Source of the DNA: Balneolaceae bacterium
GTDB lineage: Bacteria; Bacteroidota; Rhodothermia; Balneolales; Balneolaceae
Reading direction: 5' to 3'
Assembly: GCA_007693745.1 (NCBI GenBank)
Contig: REDA01000012.1
Location: forward strand, 1-64,000
Length of the DNA: 64,000 nucleotides
Part shown: in pieces, positions 6,641 to 14,734 of the stretch
How the letters are laid out: the number at the start of each line of letters is the position of its first letter
Position numbering within the stretch: position 1 is the stretch's first letter
The notes under the pieces: generated by a model
Seen by the model: only the letters and a program-made list of their open reading frames with translations
Told to the model about the DNA's origin: nothing
The model's database searches: none
Translations under genes and position numbers: made by a program

Positions 6641-7810
6641 ATGGAAAACAGCAAGATGATTACGGATCTCCTTCTTCAGCGCGCCGGGGAGTTTATCCGG
6701 CAATTCTACAGTGAATCGAACAGGGGCAATCCTGACCAAAGGCTTCGTGAGATTGAGGAGGAGATTGAAAAAAGCGGAATCTATACCCACACCTCAGAAG
6801 AGCTTCAATTCGGAGCAAAGATAGCCTGGCGAAACAGCAACCGATGCATCGGCCGCATCTTTCATGAAACTCTCGAGGTGCTTGACTGCCGCAATCTCTC
6901 CTCTGCCGGTGAGGTAATGAACGCCCTTGAAGAGCATCTGATCAGGGCAGCCAATGGCGGGAACATACAGTCTGTCATCTCCGTTTTCCAGCCGCGCCAT
7001 CCCGTTACAGGTAAAGAGATCCGAATCTGGAATCCAAAGCTGATTCGTTATGCAGGCTATCGTACGGAGAGTGGTATCATCGGTGATCCCGAGGAAGCCG
7101 ATTTCACGCAAGCCTGCATGAAACTGGGATGGAAAGGAAAAGGAACATCCTTTGATCTGCTGCCGGTTGTAATAGAGATGCCCGGCGTGGAACCGGTCTG
7201 GTTTGAACTGCCTGAGCGGTGTGTGCTGGAAGTTGAAATGGAACATCCGGAATTTGAATGGTTCAGCAAACTTGGGCTCAAATGGTATGCAGTACCTGTA
7301 ATTGCGGATATGGTTCTCGAAATCGGCGGTCTCCATTATACGGCCGCCCCCTTTAACGGCTGGTTTATGGAGACAGAGATCGGATCCCGTAATTTTGGAG
7401 ATCCGCACCGGCTCAACATGCTTCCGGAAGTGGCTGCAAGAATGGGTCTTGATACAAAAAACGACCGCACCCTCTGGAAAGACCGTGCCATGCTGGAGCT
7501 GAATCAGGCGGTGCTTCACTCTTTCCGAAAAGCGGGGGTGCGGATTGCAGATCATCACACGGCATCCAGACAGTTCATCACCTTTTGCAGAAAAGAGCAG
7601 GCTGCCGGGCGCGAGGTCACGGCCGACTGGAGCTGGATCGTACCGCCCATGTCCGGTTCATCCATGGAGGTTTTCCATCAGAACTGGCCAAATACCGTCA
7701 AAACACCCAATTTCTACTACAACACACCCGCATGGAAGTCAGGCAGTACGCCTGACTCCGCCAAAGGCTGCCCATTTCACATTTCGGGAAGGATCAGACA
7801 TCAAAACTGA
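6641..7810 (+). CDS. nos: Bacterial nitric oxide synthase, oxygenase domain only
   Basis: Cytosolic heme-thiolate enzyme of 389 residues that oxidises L-arginine to citrulline and NO. The heme ligand is Cys69 in AWRNSNRCIGR. Arginine is anchored by Glu246 in GWFMETEIGSRN; most bacterial and animal NOS have Gly or Ser where this one has Glu244. The distal pocket has Ile221 (YAVPVIADM), the bacterial residue linked to slow NO release, where animal enzymes have Val. The pterin-side SWIVPPMSGSSMEVFHQ block is complete. There is no N-terminal hook extension and no FMN/FAD reductase, so electrons must come from host flavodoxin or ferredoxin reductases. The gene is divergent from a Crp/Fnr regulator and overlaps the convergent aldehyde dehydrogenase gene by 17 bases. 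Confidence 0.95.
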   Translation: MENSKMITDLLLQRAGEFIRQFYSESNRGNPDQRLREIEEEIEKSGIYTHTSEELQFGAKIAWRNSNRCIGRIFHETLEVLDCRNLSSAGEVMNALEEHLIRAANGGNIQSVISVFQPRHPVTGKEIRIWNPKLIRYAGYRTESGIIGDPEEADFTQACMKLGWKGKGTSFDLLPVVIEMPGVEPVWFELPERCVLEVEMEHPEFEWFSKLGLKWYAVPVIADMVLEIGGLHYTAAPFNGWFMETEIGSRNFGDPHRLNMLPEVAARMGLDTKNDRTLWKDRAMLELNQAVLHSFRKAGVRIADHHTASRQFITFCRKEQAAGREVTADWSWIVPPMSGSSMEVFHQNWPNTVKTPNFYYNTPAWKSGSTPDSAKGCPFHISGRIRHQN

Positions 7811-9314
7811 TGCCCTGTGCAAGCGGCAGGTCGGTTCCCCAGTTGATCGTGTTGGTCTGACGACGCATATAGGCTTTCCAGGCGTCCGATCCCGATTCGC
7901 GACCGCCACCGGTCTCCTTCTCACCTCCGAATGCACCGCCGATCTCGGCGCCGCTGGTACCGATGTTGATATTGGCAATGCCGCAATCGGATCCGGCATG
8001 ACTCAAAAACGTTTCCGCTTCGCGCATGTTGAGCGTAAACATCGAGGAGCTGAGCCCCTGTTTTACGCCGTTGTGCAGAGCGATCGCCTCCTCCATTGTC
8101 TTGTATTTCATCAGATAGAGAATCGGCGCAAAGGTCTCTTCCTGTACTACCGGGAAGTGATTCTCCACCTCACAAAGTGCCGGTTTCACGTAGTAACCAC
8201 TCATCTCCGTGAGCACCTCTCCGCCTTCCACAAGGCTTCCTCCGCTCTTCTTCACCTCCGCAAGTGCCGTCTGCATGGCATCCACGGCATCCTGATCGAT
8301 CAGCGGCCCCACCAGGGTTCCCTCTGCCAGCGGATCGCCAATGGTGATCTTCTGATAAATTGACACGAGGCGCGATTTCACCTCCTCATACACCGATTCA
8401 TGGATAATCAGACGGCGGGTTGAGGTACATCGCTGGCCGGCCGTACCCACCGCTCCAAACACCACGGCACGGAGGGTCATCTCCAGGTCGGCCTGGTCAC
8501 TGATGATGATAGCGTTGTTGCCCCCCAGCTCCAGAATGGTTTTACCCAGCCGTGCGCCCACCGTCTGCGCCACCCGTTTCCCCATCCGGATTGAGCCGGT
8601 AGCGGAGACCAGCGGAATCCGGTCGTCTGCTGTGAGCCACTCCCCGGCTTCACGTCCACCCGTGATCAGATTAAAAATACCCTCCGGGAGCTGATTCTCC
8701 TTCAATACCTCCGCAACAATATGCTGTACCGCCACACCGCACAGAGGTGTCTTTTCCGATCCCTTCCAGATCACCGTATCCCCGCAAACCGCAGCGATCA
8801 TCGCATTCCAGCTATAGACAGCCACCGGAAAATTAAACGCGGAGATCACACCTACCGGGCCCAGCGGATGCCACTGCTCATACATTCTGTGCCTGGGTCG
8901 TTCCGAGTGCATGGTGAGCCCGTAGAGCTGCCTTGAAAGCCCCACTGCAAAATCGCAGATATCGATCATCTCCTGAACTTCACCCAACCCCTCCTGGTAG
9001 ATTTTTCCCATCTCCAGAGAAACCAGCCTTCCCAGCGGTTCCTTATACTTTCGAAGCGCCAATCCGATCTGCCTCACAATTTCACCCCTCTGCGGTGCCG
9101 GTGTCATTCTCCATTCAGCAAATGCGCTGAGGGAGGCTTCCACCACCAGATCATACTCCTCTTTTGTGGTGGGAGTGACCCTGGCGATTTCGCTTCGGTT
9201 CGAGGGTGAATAACTCACAATCGCCTGATCCGGAGAAGATTCAAAAAAGCGGGCACCTGTAGAGGTACCCGGATTACTGCTTTCTATTCCTAATTCACTG
9301 AGAAAATCGTTCAT
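7794..9314 (-). CDS. ALDH7-type aldehyde dehydrogenase (alpha-aminoadipic semialdehyde dehydrogenase-like)
   Basis: NAD(P)-dependent dehydrogenase of 506 residues, full length for the antiquitin/ALDH7 subfamily, which oxidises alpha-aminoadipic semialdehyde in lysine breakdown. Visible signatures are the Rossmann segment GPVGVISAFNFP, the general-base motif LELGGNN and the catalytic cysteine in GTAGQRCTSTRRL; both GGNN and GTAGQRCTSTRR are typical of ALDH7. Other semialdehydes or betaine aldehyde are possible substrates. No lysine catabolic partner is adjacent. Its 3' end overlaps the NOS gene on the opposite strand by 17 bases, so the two transcripts converge. Confidence 0.9.
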   Translation of the reverse strand: MNDFLSELGIESSNPGTSTGARFFESSPDQAIVSYSPSNRSEIARVTPTTKEEYDLVVEASLSAFAEWRMTPAPQRGEIVRQIGLALRKYKEPLGRLVSLEMGKIYQEGLGEVQEMIDICDFAVGLSRQLYGLTMHSERPRHRMYEQWHPLGPVGVISAFNFPVAVYSWNAMIAAVCGDTVIWKGSEKTPLCGVAVQHIVAEVLKENQLPEGIFNLITGGREAGEWLTADDRIPLVSATGSIRMGKRVAQTVGARLGKTILELGGNNAIIISDQADLEMTLRAVVFGAVGTAGQRCTSTRRLIIHESVYEEVKSRLVSIYQKITIGDPLAEGTLVGPLIDQDAVDAMQTALAEVKKSGGSLVEGGEVLTEMSGYYVKPALCEVENHFPVVQEETFAPILYLMKYKTMEEAIALHNGVKQGLSSSMFTLNMREAETFLSHAGSDCGIANINIGTSGAEIGGAFGGEKETGGGRESGSDAWKAYMRRQTNTINWGTDLPLAQGISFDV

Positions 9315-9447
9315 ATCGGGGTGCTTTCATTGATGGTTACTCATTAAGATAGCAAAACGGAGCAGAAATTTTGAAGATTTAAAATCCATCCATCAAGGGC
9401 ATTGCCCATCACAAAAAAAAGATTACGACCTGCCAGTCCGGCACACA

Positions 9448-9457
9448 GTACCCTTGC
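9448..9457 (+). repeat. Short inverted repeat, left copy (GTACCCTTGC)
   Basis: The decamer GTACCCTTGC recurs as its exact reverse complement at 11016-11025, on the other side of the DUF4143 ATPase gene. Both copies have a GCCAGT...CCGG string within 45 bases. They may be worn boundaries of the AT-rich insertion. With only ten bases of identity, chance remains possible. Confidence 0.25.
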
Positions 9458-9641
9458 TTAGGGCAAAACGAAAAAAATTTACTTGCCCCTTTTATCAGTC
9501 CCCATCACTCCACCATCCGGAAGAGTAGTCGACCTAAATCATTCATTTTGCTTGTTATCGCAGAATTGAGAATATTCCTGAACACGTTTATCTGAGCAGC
9601 TTCTGCTGGAAAACTATAAGATATAAAGCGGGAAACAGACG

Positions 9642-9800
9642 ATGAACAAACATAAAGACTTCATAATGAGAAGGAGATACAGTTCCCGAACAGTTGAGGT
9701 ATACACAAGCCATTCGGGTTCATTTCTTTCCGTGTTAAAATTGATTGAGATAAAAGAAAGCTTCTCGCACAACAGCAAAACGCACACCATACTGCCCTAA
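9642..9800 (+). pseudogene. Integrase (tyrosine recombinase) N-terminal remnant
   Basis: A 52-codon open frame from ATG to TAA contains MRRRYSSRTVEVYTSHSGSF, which resembles the start of the SAM-like core-binding domain of phage/integron-type tyrosine recombinases (RRYSxRTxxxYxxxxxxF). Homology-like sequence ends after about 35 residues and no catalytic Arg-His-Arg-Tyr domain follows, so it is a fragment. It lies in a 537-base stretch between the dehydrogenase and the DUF4143 ATPase that otherwise holds no gene. It suggests that the AT-rich segment arrived by site-specific recombination and has decayed. Confidence 0.45.
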
Positions 9801-9851
9801 AAGCATAACTTTAGGTCATTATGATGTTATTTCGTAGATTTGAAATAAAAA

Positions 9852-10967
9852 ATGTTCGAAAGGATCATTGGAGCCAGAATAATAGACAAAATCAATGGCG
9901 GCAAAGCTATTGTAGTAGTGGGTGCAAGGCAGGTTGGGAAAACAACACTGCTCAGAGAAATTTTAAAAGACAAGGAATATCTTTTCCTTGACGCAGACGA
10001 CCCCTCAACACGAAATCTGCTGGAAAGCCCAACCACTGAACAAATAAGGAGTATCATCGGAGAACATAAATATATCTTCCTGGATGAAGCTCAAAGGATC
10101 CGGGGTATAGGCTTAACACTAAAAATTATTACAGACCAATTCAAAGGAGTTCAACTCTTCGTTAGCGGTTCTTCCTCATTTGATTTAGGCAATGCATTAA
10201 ATGAGCCATTGACCGGAAGAAAATGGGAATACGAATTATTTCCAATAACATGGGAAGAATATGAAAACAAAATAGGCTTTGTTAAATCAGAACAACAAAT
10301 TGAAAACAGATTGCTTTTTGGTCTTTATCCTGAAGTAATAAACAACCAGGGAAAAGAACGTGAAACTTTAAAAAACCTCGTTAGTAGTTACTTATACAGA
10401 GATATATTAGCTTTTTCAGACATTAGAAAACCAGAAGTTCTGGAAAAGCTGTTACAAGCCTTGGCTTTGCAGATAGGAAGCGAAGTCAATTATAACGAAT
10501 TATCAAATCTTGTCGGGATCAATAAAACTACAGCACAAAAATACATTGAGATATTAGAAAAGGGATATATCATATTCAAACTAAATAGTTTTAACAGGAA
10601 CATACGCAACGAAATCAAGCTAAACAGGAAAATTTATTTTTATGATAACGGAATCCGAAATATGCTCATAGGCAATTTCAATCAATTGGATTTAAGAGTA
10701 GATAAAGGAGCATTATGGGAGAATTTTCTGGTTTCCGAAAGGAGAAAACAAAATCTGTACAAGGACACATTTGCTAAAATGTACTTTTGGCGTACAAAAC
10801 AACAACAAGAAGTTGATTTTGTTGAAGAAAAAAATGGAGAAATTTCAGCGTTTGAATTTAAATGGAATAAAAAAAAGGTAAAATTCCCGCAAAAATTTAT
10901 TGATACGTATAAAGCAAAAGGGATTTTGATTGACAGGAGTAACTTTAGAGAATTTGTGAAAATATAA
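9852..10967 (+). CDS. AAA ATPase with DUF4143 C-terminal domain
   Basis: 371-residue P-loop ATPase of the widespread ATPase_AAA/DUF4143 family. Walker A is GARQVGKT (24-31) and Walker B is KYIFLDEAQ (73-81). A winged-helix-like region precedes a C-terminal nuclease-like fold with EVDFV...AFEFKW (about 318-337), the spacing of a PD-(D/E)XK core. These proteins are patchily distributed and laterally moved; their role is unproven, with proposals ranging from defence to toxin-antitoxin-like functions. The gene is visibly richer in A and T, with more AAA and ATA codons, than its neighbours, and sits between an integrase fragment and a beta-lactamase gene. Likely horizontally acquired and intact. 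Confidence 0.85.
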   Translation: MFERIIGARIIDKINGGKAIVVVGARQVGKTTLLREILKDKEYLFLDADDPSTRNLLESPTTEQIRSIIGEHKYIFLDEAQRIRGIGLTLKIITDQFKGVQLFVSGSSSFDLGNALNEPLTGRKWEYELFPITWEEYENKIGFVKSEQQIENRLLFGLYPEVINNQGKERETLKNLVSSYLYRDILAFSDIRKPEVLEKLLQALALQIGSEVNYNELSNLVGINKTTAQKYIEILEKGYIIFKLNSFNRNIRNEIKLNRKIYFYDNGIRNMLIGNFNQLDLRVDKGALWENFLVSERRKQNLYKDTFAKMYFWRTKQQQEVDFVEEKNGEISAFEFKWNKKKVKFPQKFIDTYKAKGILIDRSNFREFVKI

Positions 10968-11015
10968 ATATGCCAGTGCCGGACATCACAAAAAACTTAA
11001 GGAGTGGTGGTCAGT

Positions 11016-11025
11016 GCAAGGGTAC
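11016..11025 (+). repeat. Short inverted repeat, right copy (GCAAGGGTAC)
   Basis: Exact reverse complement of the decamer at 9448-9457, in the 158-base spacer between the DUF4143 ATPase and the beta-lactamase start. The same spacer holds an open frame of about 43 codons without a start that I cannot identify. See the left copy for its possible meaning. Confidence 0.25.
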
Positions 11026-11125
11026 CGTTTTGAAGCCCACATAAGCTTCATCTCGGGGGATAGTAAATTAGCCCGCATCCAGCCACAGGTCTTGTGTGAG
11101 GAACCTTAACTCCAATTTAACAGAG

Positions 11126-11992
11126 ATGAATACACTCTATATCATATCGACATTTATATTCTTTTTCTCCTGCATTGACAAGAATTCTGACTCTAACAAA
11201 ATTCAGGAGAAAAAGACAGAGTTTGAGATTATAGTTCCTCAATTTCAAACCATTATTGATTCCGCACATGTAGAGGGAGCAATCTTAATTTTCGATTTAG
11301 AAGATGATAAATACTATTCGAACGACTTTATGTGGTCGAAGAGTGGACATTTACCTGCATCTACCTTCAAAATAACAAATTCAATCATCGCACTTGAGAC
11401 AGGTACTGTGGAGAACGAAAATTCGCTTTTTGAATGGGACGGAGAGAAAAGAATGCTTGTTGATTGGGAACAAGATTTAGTATTCAGAGAAGCATTTCAT
11501 TACTCGTGTGTTCCTTGTTATCAAGAGATAGCAAGGAACATTGGTAAGAAGAATATGAAAAAATACCTTGACACCCTTGATTATGGAAATATGGATGTTC
11601 ATTCCAATAATATTGATTTATTCTGGCTGGAAGGAGAATCTCGAATAACTCAATTTCAGCAGATTGACTTTTTAAAAAGATTCTATCAATCAAAACTTCC
11701 CATTTCACAGCGTACAGAATCAATAATGAAAAAAATGATGGTAATAGAAGAAAATGAATCATTCAGACTAAGTGCAAAAACAGGTTGGTCAATAATAAAT
11801 GGGATTAATAATGGTTGGTTTGTTGGATATATCGAAACCAACAATAAAACATTCTTTTTTGCGACAAATATTGAGCCTAAACAAACATTTGATATGGACT
11901 TGTTTCCAGTGATAAGAAAGGATTTGACCTTTCATGCATTAGAACAAATGGAAATCATAAAAACTGGTGCTGTCAACGTGTATGAAAAATAG
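11126..11992 (+). CDS. Class D (OXA-type) beta-lactamase, lipoprotein
   Basis: Serine beta-lactamase of 288 residues with every class D motif: STFK (79-82, nucleophile Ser79, Lys82 probably carboxylated), SCV (127-129), YGN (153-155), the Lys-stabilising Trp167 in FWLEG, KTG (218-220) and WFVGYIE. I start at the ATG at 11126 rather than the GTG at 11096, because this gives a clean signal sequence ending in lipobox FFFSC (Cys16). The enzyme should be anchored in the periplasm and hydrolyse penicillins; its spectrum cannot be predicted. The gene is AT-rich like the ATPase before it and unlike the housekeeping genes after it, consistent with lateral transfer. I see no integron attC site beside it. 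Confidence 0.93.
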   Translation: MNTLYIISTFIFFFSCIDKNSDSNKIQEKKTEFEIIVPQFQTIIDSAHVEGAILIFDLEDDKYYSNDFMWSKSGHLPASTFKITNSIIALETGTVENENSLFEWDGEKRMLVDWEQDLVFREAFHYSCVPCYQEIARNIGKKNMKKYLDTLDYGNMDVHSNNIDLFWLEGESRITQFQQIDFLKRFYQSKLPISQRTESIMKKMMVIEENESFRLSAKTGWSIINGINNGWFVGYIETNNKTFFFATNIEPKQTFDMDLFPVIRKDLTFHALEQMEIIKTGAVNVYEK

Positions 11993-12051
11993 CTGGTTCA
12001 GTGTTTAAAACCACCTCTTCCGGTCCGGATTGGGGGTGCAGTATATTCAAG

Positions 12052-12159
12052 GTGTATCCATACAAGATCTTCGTACTACTAATCGGTGGTAAGAAATCAA
12101 GGCAACAAAAGAACATACAGAATGCAAAAGAAATCTGGAATAAACTGAAGAACGAGTAA
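12052..12159 (+). pseudogene. C-terminal remnant of a RelE/HigB-like toxin
   Basis: The frame reads VYPYKIFVLLIGGKKSRQQK and continues NIQNAKEIWNKLKNE to a stop at 12157-12159. This matches the conserved end of addiction-module killer proteins (pattern LLxGGxKSxQxxDIxxAKExW). No start or N-terminal two-thirds of a toxin precedes it, and no antitoxin gene follows; the TrmH-type methyltransferase begins 20 bases later. The toxin gene was therefore truncated, probably when the beta-lactamase segment arrived. The frame stays open upstream to about 11992 without further resemblance. Confidence 0.6.
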
Positions 12160-12179
12160 CAAATCTTATTTTGCTGCTT

Positions 12180-12944
12180 ATGAAACCTACAGCACAACAG
12201 CTTAAAGAGTGGCGGAAACTGCGGATGGGAAAGTACCGCAAACGAAACCGGCTTTTTATTGCGGAGGGTGTTCGAACGGTTGAACAGATTTTGATGAACG
12301 GTGCCGTCAGGCCGGCAGCTGTTCTTCGCAGGGAGGGCCATCCGGATCCCCTCTCTTTTGAATCGGATATTCCTCTTTTTGAGGTCTCCGCAGAGGAGTT
12401 CAACTCCCTCTGTGATACAGAGACCCCTCAGGGAGTCCTGGCTGTGTGTGAAGTACCGGAACCAGCCGGCACTGATATACTTATTCGCACTCAAGGCATT
12501 ATTCTCGCACTGGATGCAGTGCAGGACCCGGGGAATCTGGGTACCATTATCCGTACAGCCACCTGGTTTGGGGCCGGAGCTATTCTGTTCGGCAGAGGAT
12601 GCGCCGATCCGTTTCATCCAAAAGTGGTACGAAGCACCGCAGGAGCCACAGGAGCTCTCCCCTACCTGCATGGGGATCTCACAGAACTGCTTCCCCTGTT
12701 CGAAGAGAGCGGACGCAACGTGATTCTGCTCGATGCAGGTGAAAACAGCCTGAATCTGAAGGAGGCCGTCCCTGTCCAAAATCCCGTCCTGGTGATTGGC
12801 AATGAGGCAAACGGAATTGACCCGAAACTCTTTTCCGGAGAGCGAACGGCCGTCCATATTCCCGGCGCCGGCTCCATGGCAGAAAGCCTGAACGCCTCCG
12901 TCGCCTCCGCTATCGCTCTCTTTTATTTCACTGATTTTTTATAA
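12180..12944 (+). CDS. TrmH/SpoU-family RNA 2'-O-methyltransferase
   Basis: 254-residue SPOUT methyltransferase. An N-terminal substrate-binding domain (KYRKRNRLFIAEGVRTVEQ) is followed by the knotted catalytic domain with motif 1 DPGNLGTIIRTATWFGA, motif 2 VLVIGNEANGI and motif 3 IPGAGSMAESLNASVAS. Family members methylate ribose in 23S rRNA or tRNA using S-adenosylmethionine; RlmB-like activity is likely but not proven. I use the ATG at 12180; a TTG three codons earlier also opens the frame. Codon use returns to the chromosomal norm here, marking the right edge of the AT-rich island. Confidence 0.9.
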   Translation: MKPTAQQLKEWRKLRMGKYRKRNRLFIAEGVRTVEQILMNGAVRPAAVLRREGHPDPLSFESDIPLFEVSAEEFNSLCDTETPQGVLAVCEVPEPAGTDILIRTQGIILALDAVQDPGNLGTIIRTATWFGAGAILFGRGCADPFHPKVVRSTAGATGALPYLHGDLTELLPLFEESGRNVILLDAGENSLNLKEAVPVQNPVLVIGNEANGIDPKLFSGERTAVHIPGAGSMAESLNASVASAIALFYFTDFL

Positions 12945-13399: not shown

Positions 13400-14734
13400 A
13401 TGCCCGCTAAGAAGAAAGTGAAGAAGATCTTTGTTCTTGACACTTCTGTACTTCTCTATGATTCAGACGCCGTAAAAAATTTTGAAAAACATGATATCGC
13501 CATCCCGATCACGGTACTTGAAGAGCTGGACTCTTTCAAGAAGGGAAATACGGTAACCAACCTTCACGCACGCGAATTTATCCGCTATCTGGATAAAATC
13601 ACAGATGCAAATATGCTTCAGCAGTGGATCCCGCTGAATGGCCGCACTCACGGCAAGATCCGTGTGATCAGCGATGAAGGCAGTTCCACCAACGCCTCAA
13701 AGGTTTTTGGTTCGGAAAAAAATGATCACCGTATCCTGAATGCCGCCCTCAGGCTCAGGGAGATTGAACCTGAAAAGAAAGTGACCCTCGTCTCCAAAGA
13801 CATTAACCTCCGCCTGAAAGCGCGTGCACTGAGCCTCGACGCGGAGGATTATGAGACCATTCGGATTAAGGATATCGACCATCTCTACAAGGGAAAGAGC
13901 CTGATCACACTGGAGGATAACACCGCCATCAACCAGCTCTATGAAAAAGGAAGGGTGAAACAGTCGGAGATTGAACCCAGCCAGCCGGTGAGCAACCACT
14001 ACTACATCCTGAAAAACCATTCCAGTTCCGCCCTGGGCTATTACAACCCGAAGAGTAAAAAAGTGGAACTGGTGAAATCGGTCTGCGCCTACGGTGTCAC
14101 CCCCCGAAATGCAGAACAGACATTTGCCATGCATGCGCTGATGAATCCGGATATTCTGCTTACCACCATCACCGGAGCCGCCGGTACAGGGAAAACACTC
14201 CTTGCCCTGGCCTGCGCCATAGAGCAGCGCCGTTATTACCGCCAAATCTATCTTGCCCGGCCTATTGTACCACTGAGTAACCGCGACCTCGGTTTTCTTC
14301 CCGGAGATGTGAAATCCAAAATTGATCCCTATATGCAGCCTCTGTGGGATAACCTCAGCATTATCAAAAATCAGTTCAGCGAAAGCAGCAAGCAGTACAA
14401 AAAAATCGATGAACTGGTGCAGACAGACAAGCTCTCGATTGTCCCCCTGGCCTATATACGGGGCCGAAGCCTGAACAACGTGATCTTTATCATCGATGAG
14501 GCGCAGAATCTTACCCCGCATGAAATCAAAACGATTATCACCCGGGCCGGAGAAAATACCAAAATCATTTTTACCGGGGATATCTTCCAGATCGACACCC
14601 CCTACCTCGACGCGCAGAGTAACGGCCTTTCCTATCTGGTGGACCGGATGCACAACAACGACCTCTATGCCCATATCGCACTCGAGAAGGGAGAGCGGTC
14701 GGAACTGGCCAACCTGGCAAGTAAATTTCTATGA
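13400..14734 (+). CDS. PhoH2-type protein (PIN domain fused to PhoH ATPase)
   Basis: 444-residue cytosolic protein. An N-terminal PIN RNase domain (about 10-150) has acidic residues at Asp14 and Glu41-Glu42, then Asp109 and Asp134. The C-terminal PhoH helicase-like ATPase has Walker A GAAGTGKT (259-266) and Walker B VIFIIDEAQN. PhoH2 proteins unwind and cut RNA; in mycobacteria the gene is paired with an antitoxin-like gene, but no small partner gene lies upstream here. An esterase, a DoxX protein and a permease follow on the same strand with gaps of 62, 3 and 16 bases, so they may share transcription. Confidence 0.92.
   Translation: MPAKKKVKKIFVLDTSVLLYDSDAVKNFEKHDIAIPITVLEELDSFKKGNTVTNLHAREFIRYLDKITDANMLQQWIPLNGRTHGKIRVISDEGSSTNASKVFGSEKNDHRILNAALRLREIEPEKKVTLVSKDINLRLKARALSLDAEDYETIRIKDIDHLYKGKSLITLEDNTAINQLYEKGRVKQSEIEPSQPVSNHYYILKNHSSSALGYYNPKSKKVELVKSVCAYGVTPRNAEQTFAMHALMNPDILLTTITGAAGTGKTLLALACAIEQRRYYRQIYLARPIVPLSNRDLGFLPGDVKSKIDPYMQPLWDNLSIIKNQFSESSKQYKKIDELVQTDKLSIVPLAYIRGRSLNNVIFIIDEAQNLTPHEIKTIITRAGENTKIIFTGDIFQIDTPYLDAQSNGLSYLVDRMHNNDLYAHIALEKGERSELANLASKFL

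Follow-up and report, generated by a model that had tools for sequence, protein, structure and literature searches.

A reused accessory slot between a dehydrogenase gene and an RNA methyltransferase gene in a Balneolaceae genome, and the palindromes upstream of its DUF4143 gene

An accessory slot in a fixed gene pair

How did 2.86 kb of A+T-rich DNA come to lie between two conserved chromosomal genes that are nearly adjacent in almost all relatives, and did it arrive at once or in pieces? The question is raised by contig REDA01000012.1 (69.6 kb) of a Balneolaceae genome of 2.87 Mb (GCA_007693745.1), of which the first 64,000 nucleotides were analysed and are called the window here. In the window, the insert separates the gene of an ALDH7-type dehydrogenase from that of a TrmH-type RNA methyltransferase, and the initial annotation had described it as a layered accessory island made of an integrase fragment, a DUF4143 ATPase gene, an intact class D beta-lactamase gene and the tail of a RelE/HigB toxin. 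We consider it likely that the interval is an accessory slot within a fixed gene pair and that it contains at least two acquired genes, probably gained separately: a DUF4143 unit of the PDC-S01 type and the class D gene, accompanied by remnants.

Comparison of the interval across relatives carries much of this reading. Dehydrogenase orthologues are found in nearly all of 92 family genomes and methyltransferase orthologues in 79 of 89. Wherever a single contig carries both genes, in 74 family genomes, the two are divergent (74/74), with a gap of mostly about 100–250 bp and a median of 148 bp. Only four genomes have gaps of 1–3 kb (G049, 1351 bp; G019, 1630 bp; G020, 2182 bp; and the window genome, at 2856 bp the largest); in G052 the two genes lie 94 kb apart. 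The gaps of G019 and G020 each contain a single DUF4143 gene, of a clade different from the window copy, and the gap of G049, which belongs to another genus, holds an unrelated lipoprotein-like gene of unknown family (L265:258-1142). G013 carries a DUF4143 gene in the next gap, between the methyltransferase gene and the PhoH2 gene (at 13400 in the window), and the gap of G023, the sister of G019 (dehydrogenase 99% identical), has no insert. The slot has received DNA more than once, as follows from the DUF4143 genes of the other clade in G019 and G020 and the unrelated gene in G049. Moreover, since the DUF4143 proteins of G013, G019 and G020 form one clade (100/100 support) in a tree of 30 such proteins and the window copy falls into the other main clade, the slot gained a DUF4143 gene at least twice. 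By a rough estimate, which takes some 85 DUF4143 hits for the sample and assumes 3000 or so gaps per genome, although these are not equal targets, the chance of finding two or three DUF4143 genes in one gap is about 4e-4 and 4e-6, respectively. The comparison proposed with the initial annotation thus yielded short gaps nearly everywhere and other cargo in a few genomes, which supports acquisition at one site, and the repeated insertion that it had suggested is matched by the reuse of the slot in G019, G020 and G049.

The borders and contents of the slot in the window are as follows.

7794 to 9314, minus strand: gene of an ALDH7-type L-piperidine-6-carboxylate dehydrogenase, left border (NF050084, 819 bits, cut-off 730)
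9315 to 9783: non-coding filler, possibly the former promoter region of the dehydrogenase gene in its first ~60 bp, the remainder having no detected relative
9642 to 9800, plus strand: open reading frame (ORF) of 52 codons, annotated earlier as an integrase N-terminal fragment, without a recombinase match
9784 to 9827: imperfect 44-bp palindrome, 15 of 18 pairs matching (P 0.006 against 2000 dinucleotide shuffles)
9852 to 10967, plus strand: intact gene of a DUF4143/AAA_14 ATPase of 371 residues, PDC-S01 in PADLOC (Pfam DUF4143, E 4e-44; AAA_14, E 1e-29)
10968 to 11125: spacer without a recognisable gene
11126 to 11992, plus strand (alternative GTG start at 11096): intact gene of a class D beta-lactamase, a predicted lipoprotein (NF012161, 263.5 bits, cut-off 250)
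about 12049 to 12159, plus strand: C-terminal remnant of a RelE/HigB-type toxin of the HI1419-upstream family (TIGR02683, 27 bits, E 3e-6, profile positions 66–94 of 95)
12180 to 12944, plus strand (ATG at 12180, alternative TTG at 12171): gene of a SpoU/TrmH-type RNA methyltransferase, right border (SpoU_methylase, E 1e-28)

Both complete genes of the insert differ strongly in G+C content (GC) from their surroundings. The DUF4143 gene has a GC of 0.340 (z −6.4) and the class D gene of 0.332 (z −6.8) when set against the window's remaining long ORFs, which have about 0.50, and the insert overall has 0.36. The sharp shift towards A+T noted initially is therefore real in both genes (z about −6 to −7), but it does not extend over the entire island. 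Positions 10968–11095 of the spacer are host-like (GC 0.492), as if other DNA separated two foreign pieces, and in relatives the empty gap is itself A+T-rich (GC about 0.29–0.41), so that the shift within the first ~60 bp alone is no evidence of foreign DNA. The insert genes are firmly placed as foreign, horizontally acquired DNA by their GC of 0.33–0.34 against about 0.50, together with the position of the closest DUF4143 copies in other families.

These closest copies, among 394 genomes of the phylum, are those of G102 (83% identical) and G352 (81%), while the window protein shares no more than 57% identity with the others of its own family, where the DUF4143 domain (PF13635) is patchy (36 of 89 genomes). 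The neighbours have changed as well, the gene in G102 lying beside a glyoxalase-type gene as judged by reading ORFs. DNA homology between the window and G102 extends from −74 relative to the ATG to the stop codon and not beyond; that between the window and G352 starts at −47, covering the upstream part from −47 to +1 and the gene to its stop codon; and in G023 a pair of paralogues from separate loci align from −114 to +4 with 84% identity. The DUF4143 gene apparently spreads as a single gene plus its control region, and the window copy reached the slot by horizontal transfer, apparently as such a one-gene unit of promoter palindrome and coding sequence.

Further copies were seen in passing. 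The 81% copy of G352 (L273) lies within a set of hydrogenase maturation genes, with hypD and hypE as its neighbours on either side (by reading ORFs). Three more divergent DUF4143 genes are present in the same genome as the window (G000:C37:56717-57835, G000:C93:21688-22512 and G000:C43:2037-2441), and G022 has a broken DUF4143 gene (L151:5198-6128) whose neighbour, a membrane hydrolase gene, also flanks an intact copy in G023 (L148).

The DUF4143 protein and the DNA upstream of its gene

The DUF4143 ATPase of the initial annotation is a complete protein, matched best, among PADLOC models, by that of PDC-S01 (PDLC04789) over residues 1–369 (E 5.9e-159), with the conserved Walker motifs GARQVGKT and IFLDEAQ of an AAA+ ATPase intact. 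In its structure model (predicted local distance difference test score, pLDDT, 90.6), residues 1–275, comprising ATPase and winged helix, match the archaeal STAND-like ATPases PABY2304 (2qen, Z 16.5) and Sso1545 (2fna, Z 15.7) and the ATPase cores of NLR/CED-4 proteins (Z about 14). Unlike all of these, the window protein has no tandem-repeat sensor and carries a C-terminal nuclease-like domain instead. Modelled alone (pLDDT 88.6), the C-terminal domain matches mostly PD-(D/E)XK nucleases (Can2, McrC, Hjc, EcoRV and TnsA; Z 5–7), a list that is consistent although each single match is weak, and in this domain E290, E320 and D322 are invariant and E335 and K337 almost so. The model thus suggests, as the most likely architecture, a STAND-like AAA+ ATPase followed by a winged helix and a C-terminal PD-(D/E)XK-like nuclease. 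The same order of AAA_14 ATPase, winged helix and DUF4143/PD-(D/E)XK domain in a single gene has been described for PDC-S01, the COG1373/DUF4143 ATPases (PMC12988326). PDC-S01, an ATPase fused to PD-(D/E)XK, is reported to rank fourth by frequency among the defences of prokaryotes, and most such defence candidates still await experimental validation (PMC12988326). The window gene is most likely a candidate single-gene anti-phage system of this kind.

Side-by-side reading of the upstream DNA of DUF4143 genes brought out palindromes directly before the start codon. An inverted-repeat score of at least 9 within the last 110 bp was reached by 22 of the 30 DUF4143 genes of the family and by 13 of 234 other genes of these loci (p 8e-17). 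When shuffles served as the reference, a palindrome p of 0.05 was reached by 20/30 and 21/234, respectively. Tandem repeats were likewise enriched (18 of 30 family DUF4143 genes against 22 of 192 controls, p 2e-8), with a period of 32–33 bp in the clade of the window copy and of 51–53 bp in the other clade. A second set comprised 29 DUF4143 genes of the phylum, of plasmids (one of them from Treponema) and of phage contigs; in it, the best repeat fell at 32 or 33 bp in 18 genes as compared with 13 of 379 controls (p 5e-16); the family set gave 13 of 30 against the same 13/379 (p 6e-10). All these p-values treat genes as independent and depend on start codons chosen by rule. Between subfamilies the repeats bear no relation in sequence, as TAGTTATAACCATTTTGGATTATATTCCTG in G049, TTTGGTGAATGTAATCACCAAA in L284 and TCGAAAATTATTATAATATTT in the Treponema locus L194 illustrate, and although they differ, the pitch stays constant near three helical turns. 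Palindrome arrays with a pitch of 32–33 bp were seen at L107, L100, L284, L292, L294, L278 and L194, and a pitch of 51–53 bp at L111, L128 and L024. The window palindrome itself stands in register with a near-perfect 44-bp palindrome (score 17) before the 83% copy in G102.

The palindromes and 32-bp repeats could be something other than operators, namely transposition ends, terminators of the upstream genes or chance products of A+T-rich DNA. They are indeed A+T-rich, and related genes share them by descent. We nevertheless regard this explanation as unlikely, given the enrichment against both dinucleotide shuffles and 192–379 control genes, the constant pitch of repeats whose sequences are unrelated between subfamilies, and the closeness of the sites to the start codon; furthermore, no matching copy was seen by eye downstream of the gene.

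If the sites are operators, as we prefer to read them, the winged helix would bind the palindromic array as an oligomer and repress its own promoter, and infection or DNA damage would change the state of the ATPase, freeing expression and letting the nuclease act. Such autoregulation resembles the control by RptR, an island-encoded repressor, where several short palindromic repeats over the promoter control a restriction-modification island (PMC12255303). In both cases a defence gene, here a candidate one, lies behind palindromic repeats at its promoter. RptR, a small repressor in its own right, has 9-bp repeats, whereas the DUF4143 sites are subfamily-specific with a pitch of 32–33 bp and have no candidate binder besides the ATPase. 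In the accessible literature PDC-S01 is described by protein and distribution only, to which the upstream palindromes, the 32–33 bp arrays and the spread of single genes across families are added here; we found no report of arrays at DUF4143/COG1373 genes in the open-access literature.

Taken alone, the insert is of an ordinary and well-documented kind, a reused accessory slot. What gives the finding its weight are helically phased, subfamily-specific promoter arrays in a very common family without a tested mechanism (PMC12988326), as they make the function of DUF4143 accessible at the bench, through whether the protein binds the array of its own gene, whether such binding governs expression or the nuclease, and whether units belonging to different subfamilies exclude one another. 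A tentative generalisation, which we put forward as a possibility, is that DUF4143/PDC-S01 genes move about as one-gene units, each with a subfamily-specific array (32–33 bp or about three turns, or 51–53 bp or about five turns) that is bound by its own winged-helix ATPase-nuclease. The resulting private self-recognition code would set expression and perhaps the incompatibility of units, and the ALDH7-TrmH gap would be a recurrent landing site.

Several observations weigh against self-regulated one-gene units in a repeatedly used slot. The window copy has no significant direct repeat upstream and no 32–33 bp array, and its palindrome is eroded, so that its own regulation may be lost. Palindromes are weak at distant DUF4143 genes on viral contigs (6 of 25 against 4 of 70, p 0.02), of which a wide alignment found 32 loci and a narrow alignment none. 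The DUF4143 genes are related, and counts over them are not independent. At ~75% nucleotide identity neutral flanks are unalignable anyway, so that the changed neighbour genes speak more strongly for a one-gene unit than the end of homology at the stop codon does. A single ancestral insertion with later losses could account for the copies in G019, G020 and G013. Finally, neither an insertion junction nor a target duplication was found at the insert.

The class D gene, the toxin remnant and the route of insertion

The second complete gene is an intact class D beta-lactamase gene, as annotated initially, and is best read from 11126 rather than 11096. Its product belongs to the class D family with all catalytic motifs (STFK, SCV, YGN and KTG), like the OXA-209/OXA-347-type enzymes of Bacteroidota. 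It has a lipobox, and its predicted role is the hydrolysis of beta-lactams at the cell envelope. Unlike OXA-209 and OXA-347, the window enzyme is chromosomal and solitary and only 53–68% identical to plasmid-borne relatives, the closest being a Myroides enzyme (67.9%), OXA-209 (56.5%) and OXA-347 (53.5%); it adds an environmental, chromosomal relative to the OXA enzymes found on plasmids of Bacteroidota. The gene is patchy, with relatives in 6 of 89 family genomes and, at E 1e-60, in 11 of 394 phylum genomes, and was acquired, probably separately from the PDC-S01 gene.

Behind it lie the last ~35 codons of the toxin gene, whose start is absent. The match to TIGR02683 is joined by one to phrog_3445 (E 9e-6), which agrees with the toxin tail of the initial annotation. 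No antitoxin ORF was recognised in the insert, either in the ORF list or by Pfam searches of the frames, and what is present is a toxin tail rather than a complete type II toxin-antitoxin pair. The tail may mark an earlier or a partly deleted acquisition. In G060 (L158:4959-6593), a 61% relative of the class D enzyme adjoins a complete HigB/HigA-like pair (by reading ORFs), and the window gene adjoins the toxin tail.

Searches of the frames of the non-coding parts against Pfam revealed no other gene remnants. The filler at 9315–9783 has no plasmid match, no protein family in its frames and no match elsewhere in its own genome, and Rfam detected two transfer RNA (tRNA) genes in the window and no other structured RNA.

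By which route did these pieces enter? A tyrosine-recombinase element might have inserted repeatedly and left behind an integrase fragment next to its cargo, as the initial annotation implied. Reuse of the slot in relatives would fit, as would the position of the Myroides plasmid relative of the beta-lactamase gene between IS91-family transposase and tyrosine-recombinase genes. The supposed fragment, however, bears no recognisable trace of a recombinase. The ORF at 9642–9800 found nothing in Pfam, NCBIfam, PDB or plasmids and, in PHROGs, only a 93-residue family of unknown function (E 0.03); no congener encodes a fuller version; its alignment to 31 tyrosine recombinases is no better than that of its own shuffles (P 0.6); and it has no significant match to the Myroides recombinase. 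The sequences flanking the insert contain short, chance-level repeat pairs only and no att-like repeat, and no tRNA gene lies near the insert. With neither recombinase nor attachment repeats, the insert does not qualify as a tyrosine-recombinase integrative element, which leaves this route very improbable. Consequently, of the island described initially, the A+T-rich insert, the DUF4143 and class D genes and the toxin tail stand and the integrase fragment does not: a reused slot with intact and decayed pieces is retained, decay being represented by the toxin tail, and nothing indicates that the site was created by an integrase.

Old vertical inheritance would instead make the DUF4143 gene ancestral in the gap and lost in most lineages. 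The congeners G013, G019 and G020 lend themselves to this view, their single, fully supported clade lying beside the methyltransferase gene in each. The window copy does not, as it belongs to the opposite main clade and has its nearest relatives in other families, and tree and phylum search together refute vertical descent for it; in addition, G023 lacks the insert despite being the sister of G019, and the G013 copy flanks the methyltransferase gene on its PhoH2 side. We give ancestral presence hardly any weight and retain separate acquisitions in a reused slot. Capture as integron-type cassettes at attC sites, which three same-strand A+T-rich coding pieces including a beta-lactamase gene and a toxin remnant could suggest, is largely refuted: the sole attC-like core-site pair lies inside the DUF4143 coding sequence, with none in the non-coding parts, and no integron integrase was matched in the insert.

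The gap shows further variation among relatives. Gaps of 230–550 bp in several genomes contain short tandem repeats such as (TTTCACT)n, and (TTTCACT)n, (AGAAGTC)n, (GGTTTCT)n and (CAGAACT)n were found among L068, L069, L066, L065, L064, L067 and L268. Long inverted copies are present at both ends of the G020 gap (L062). The pair is split in the sister genomes G022 and G011 (L071, L072), where the dehydrogenase gene faces a gene of a TerC-like membrane protein, and in G022 (L070) the methyltransferase gene faces a gene of an OxyR-like regulator. On the far side of the dehydrogenase gene, the window encodes a nitric oxide synthase oxygenase domain (6641–7810; PF02898, E 2e-158), and the 3′ end of this gene overlaps the 3′ end of the dehydrogenase gene.

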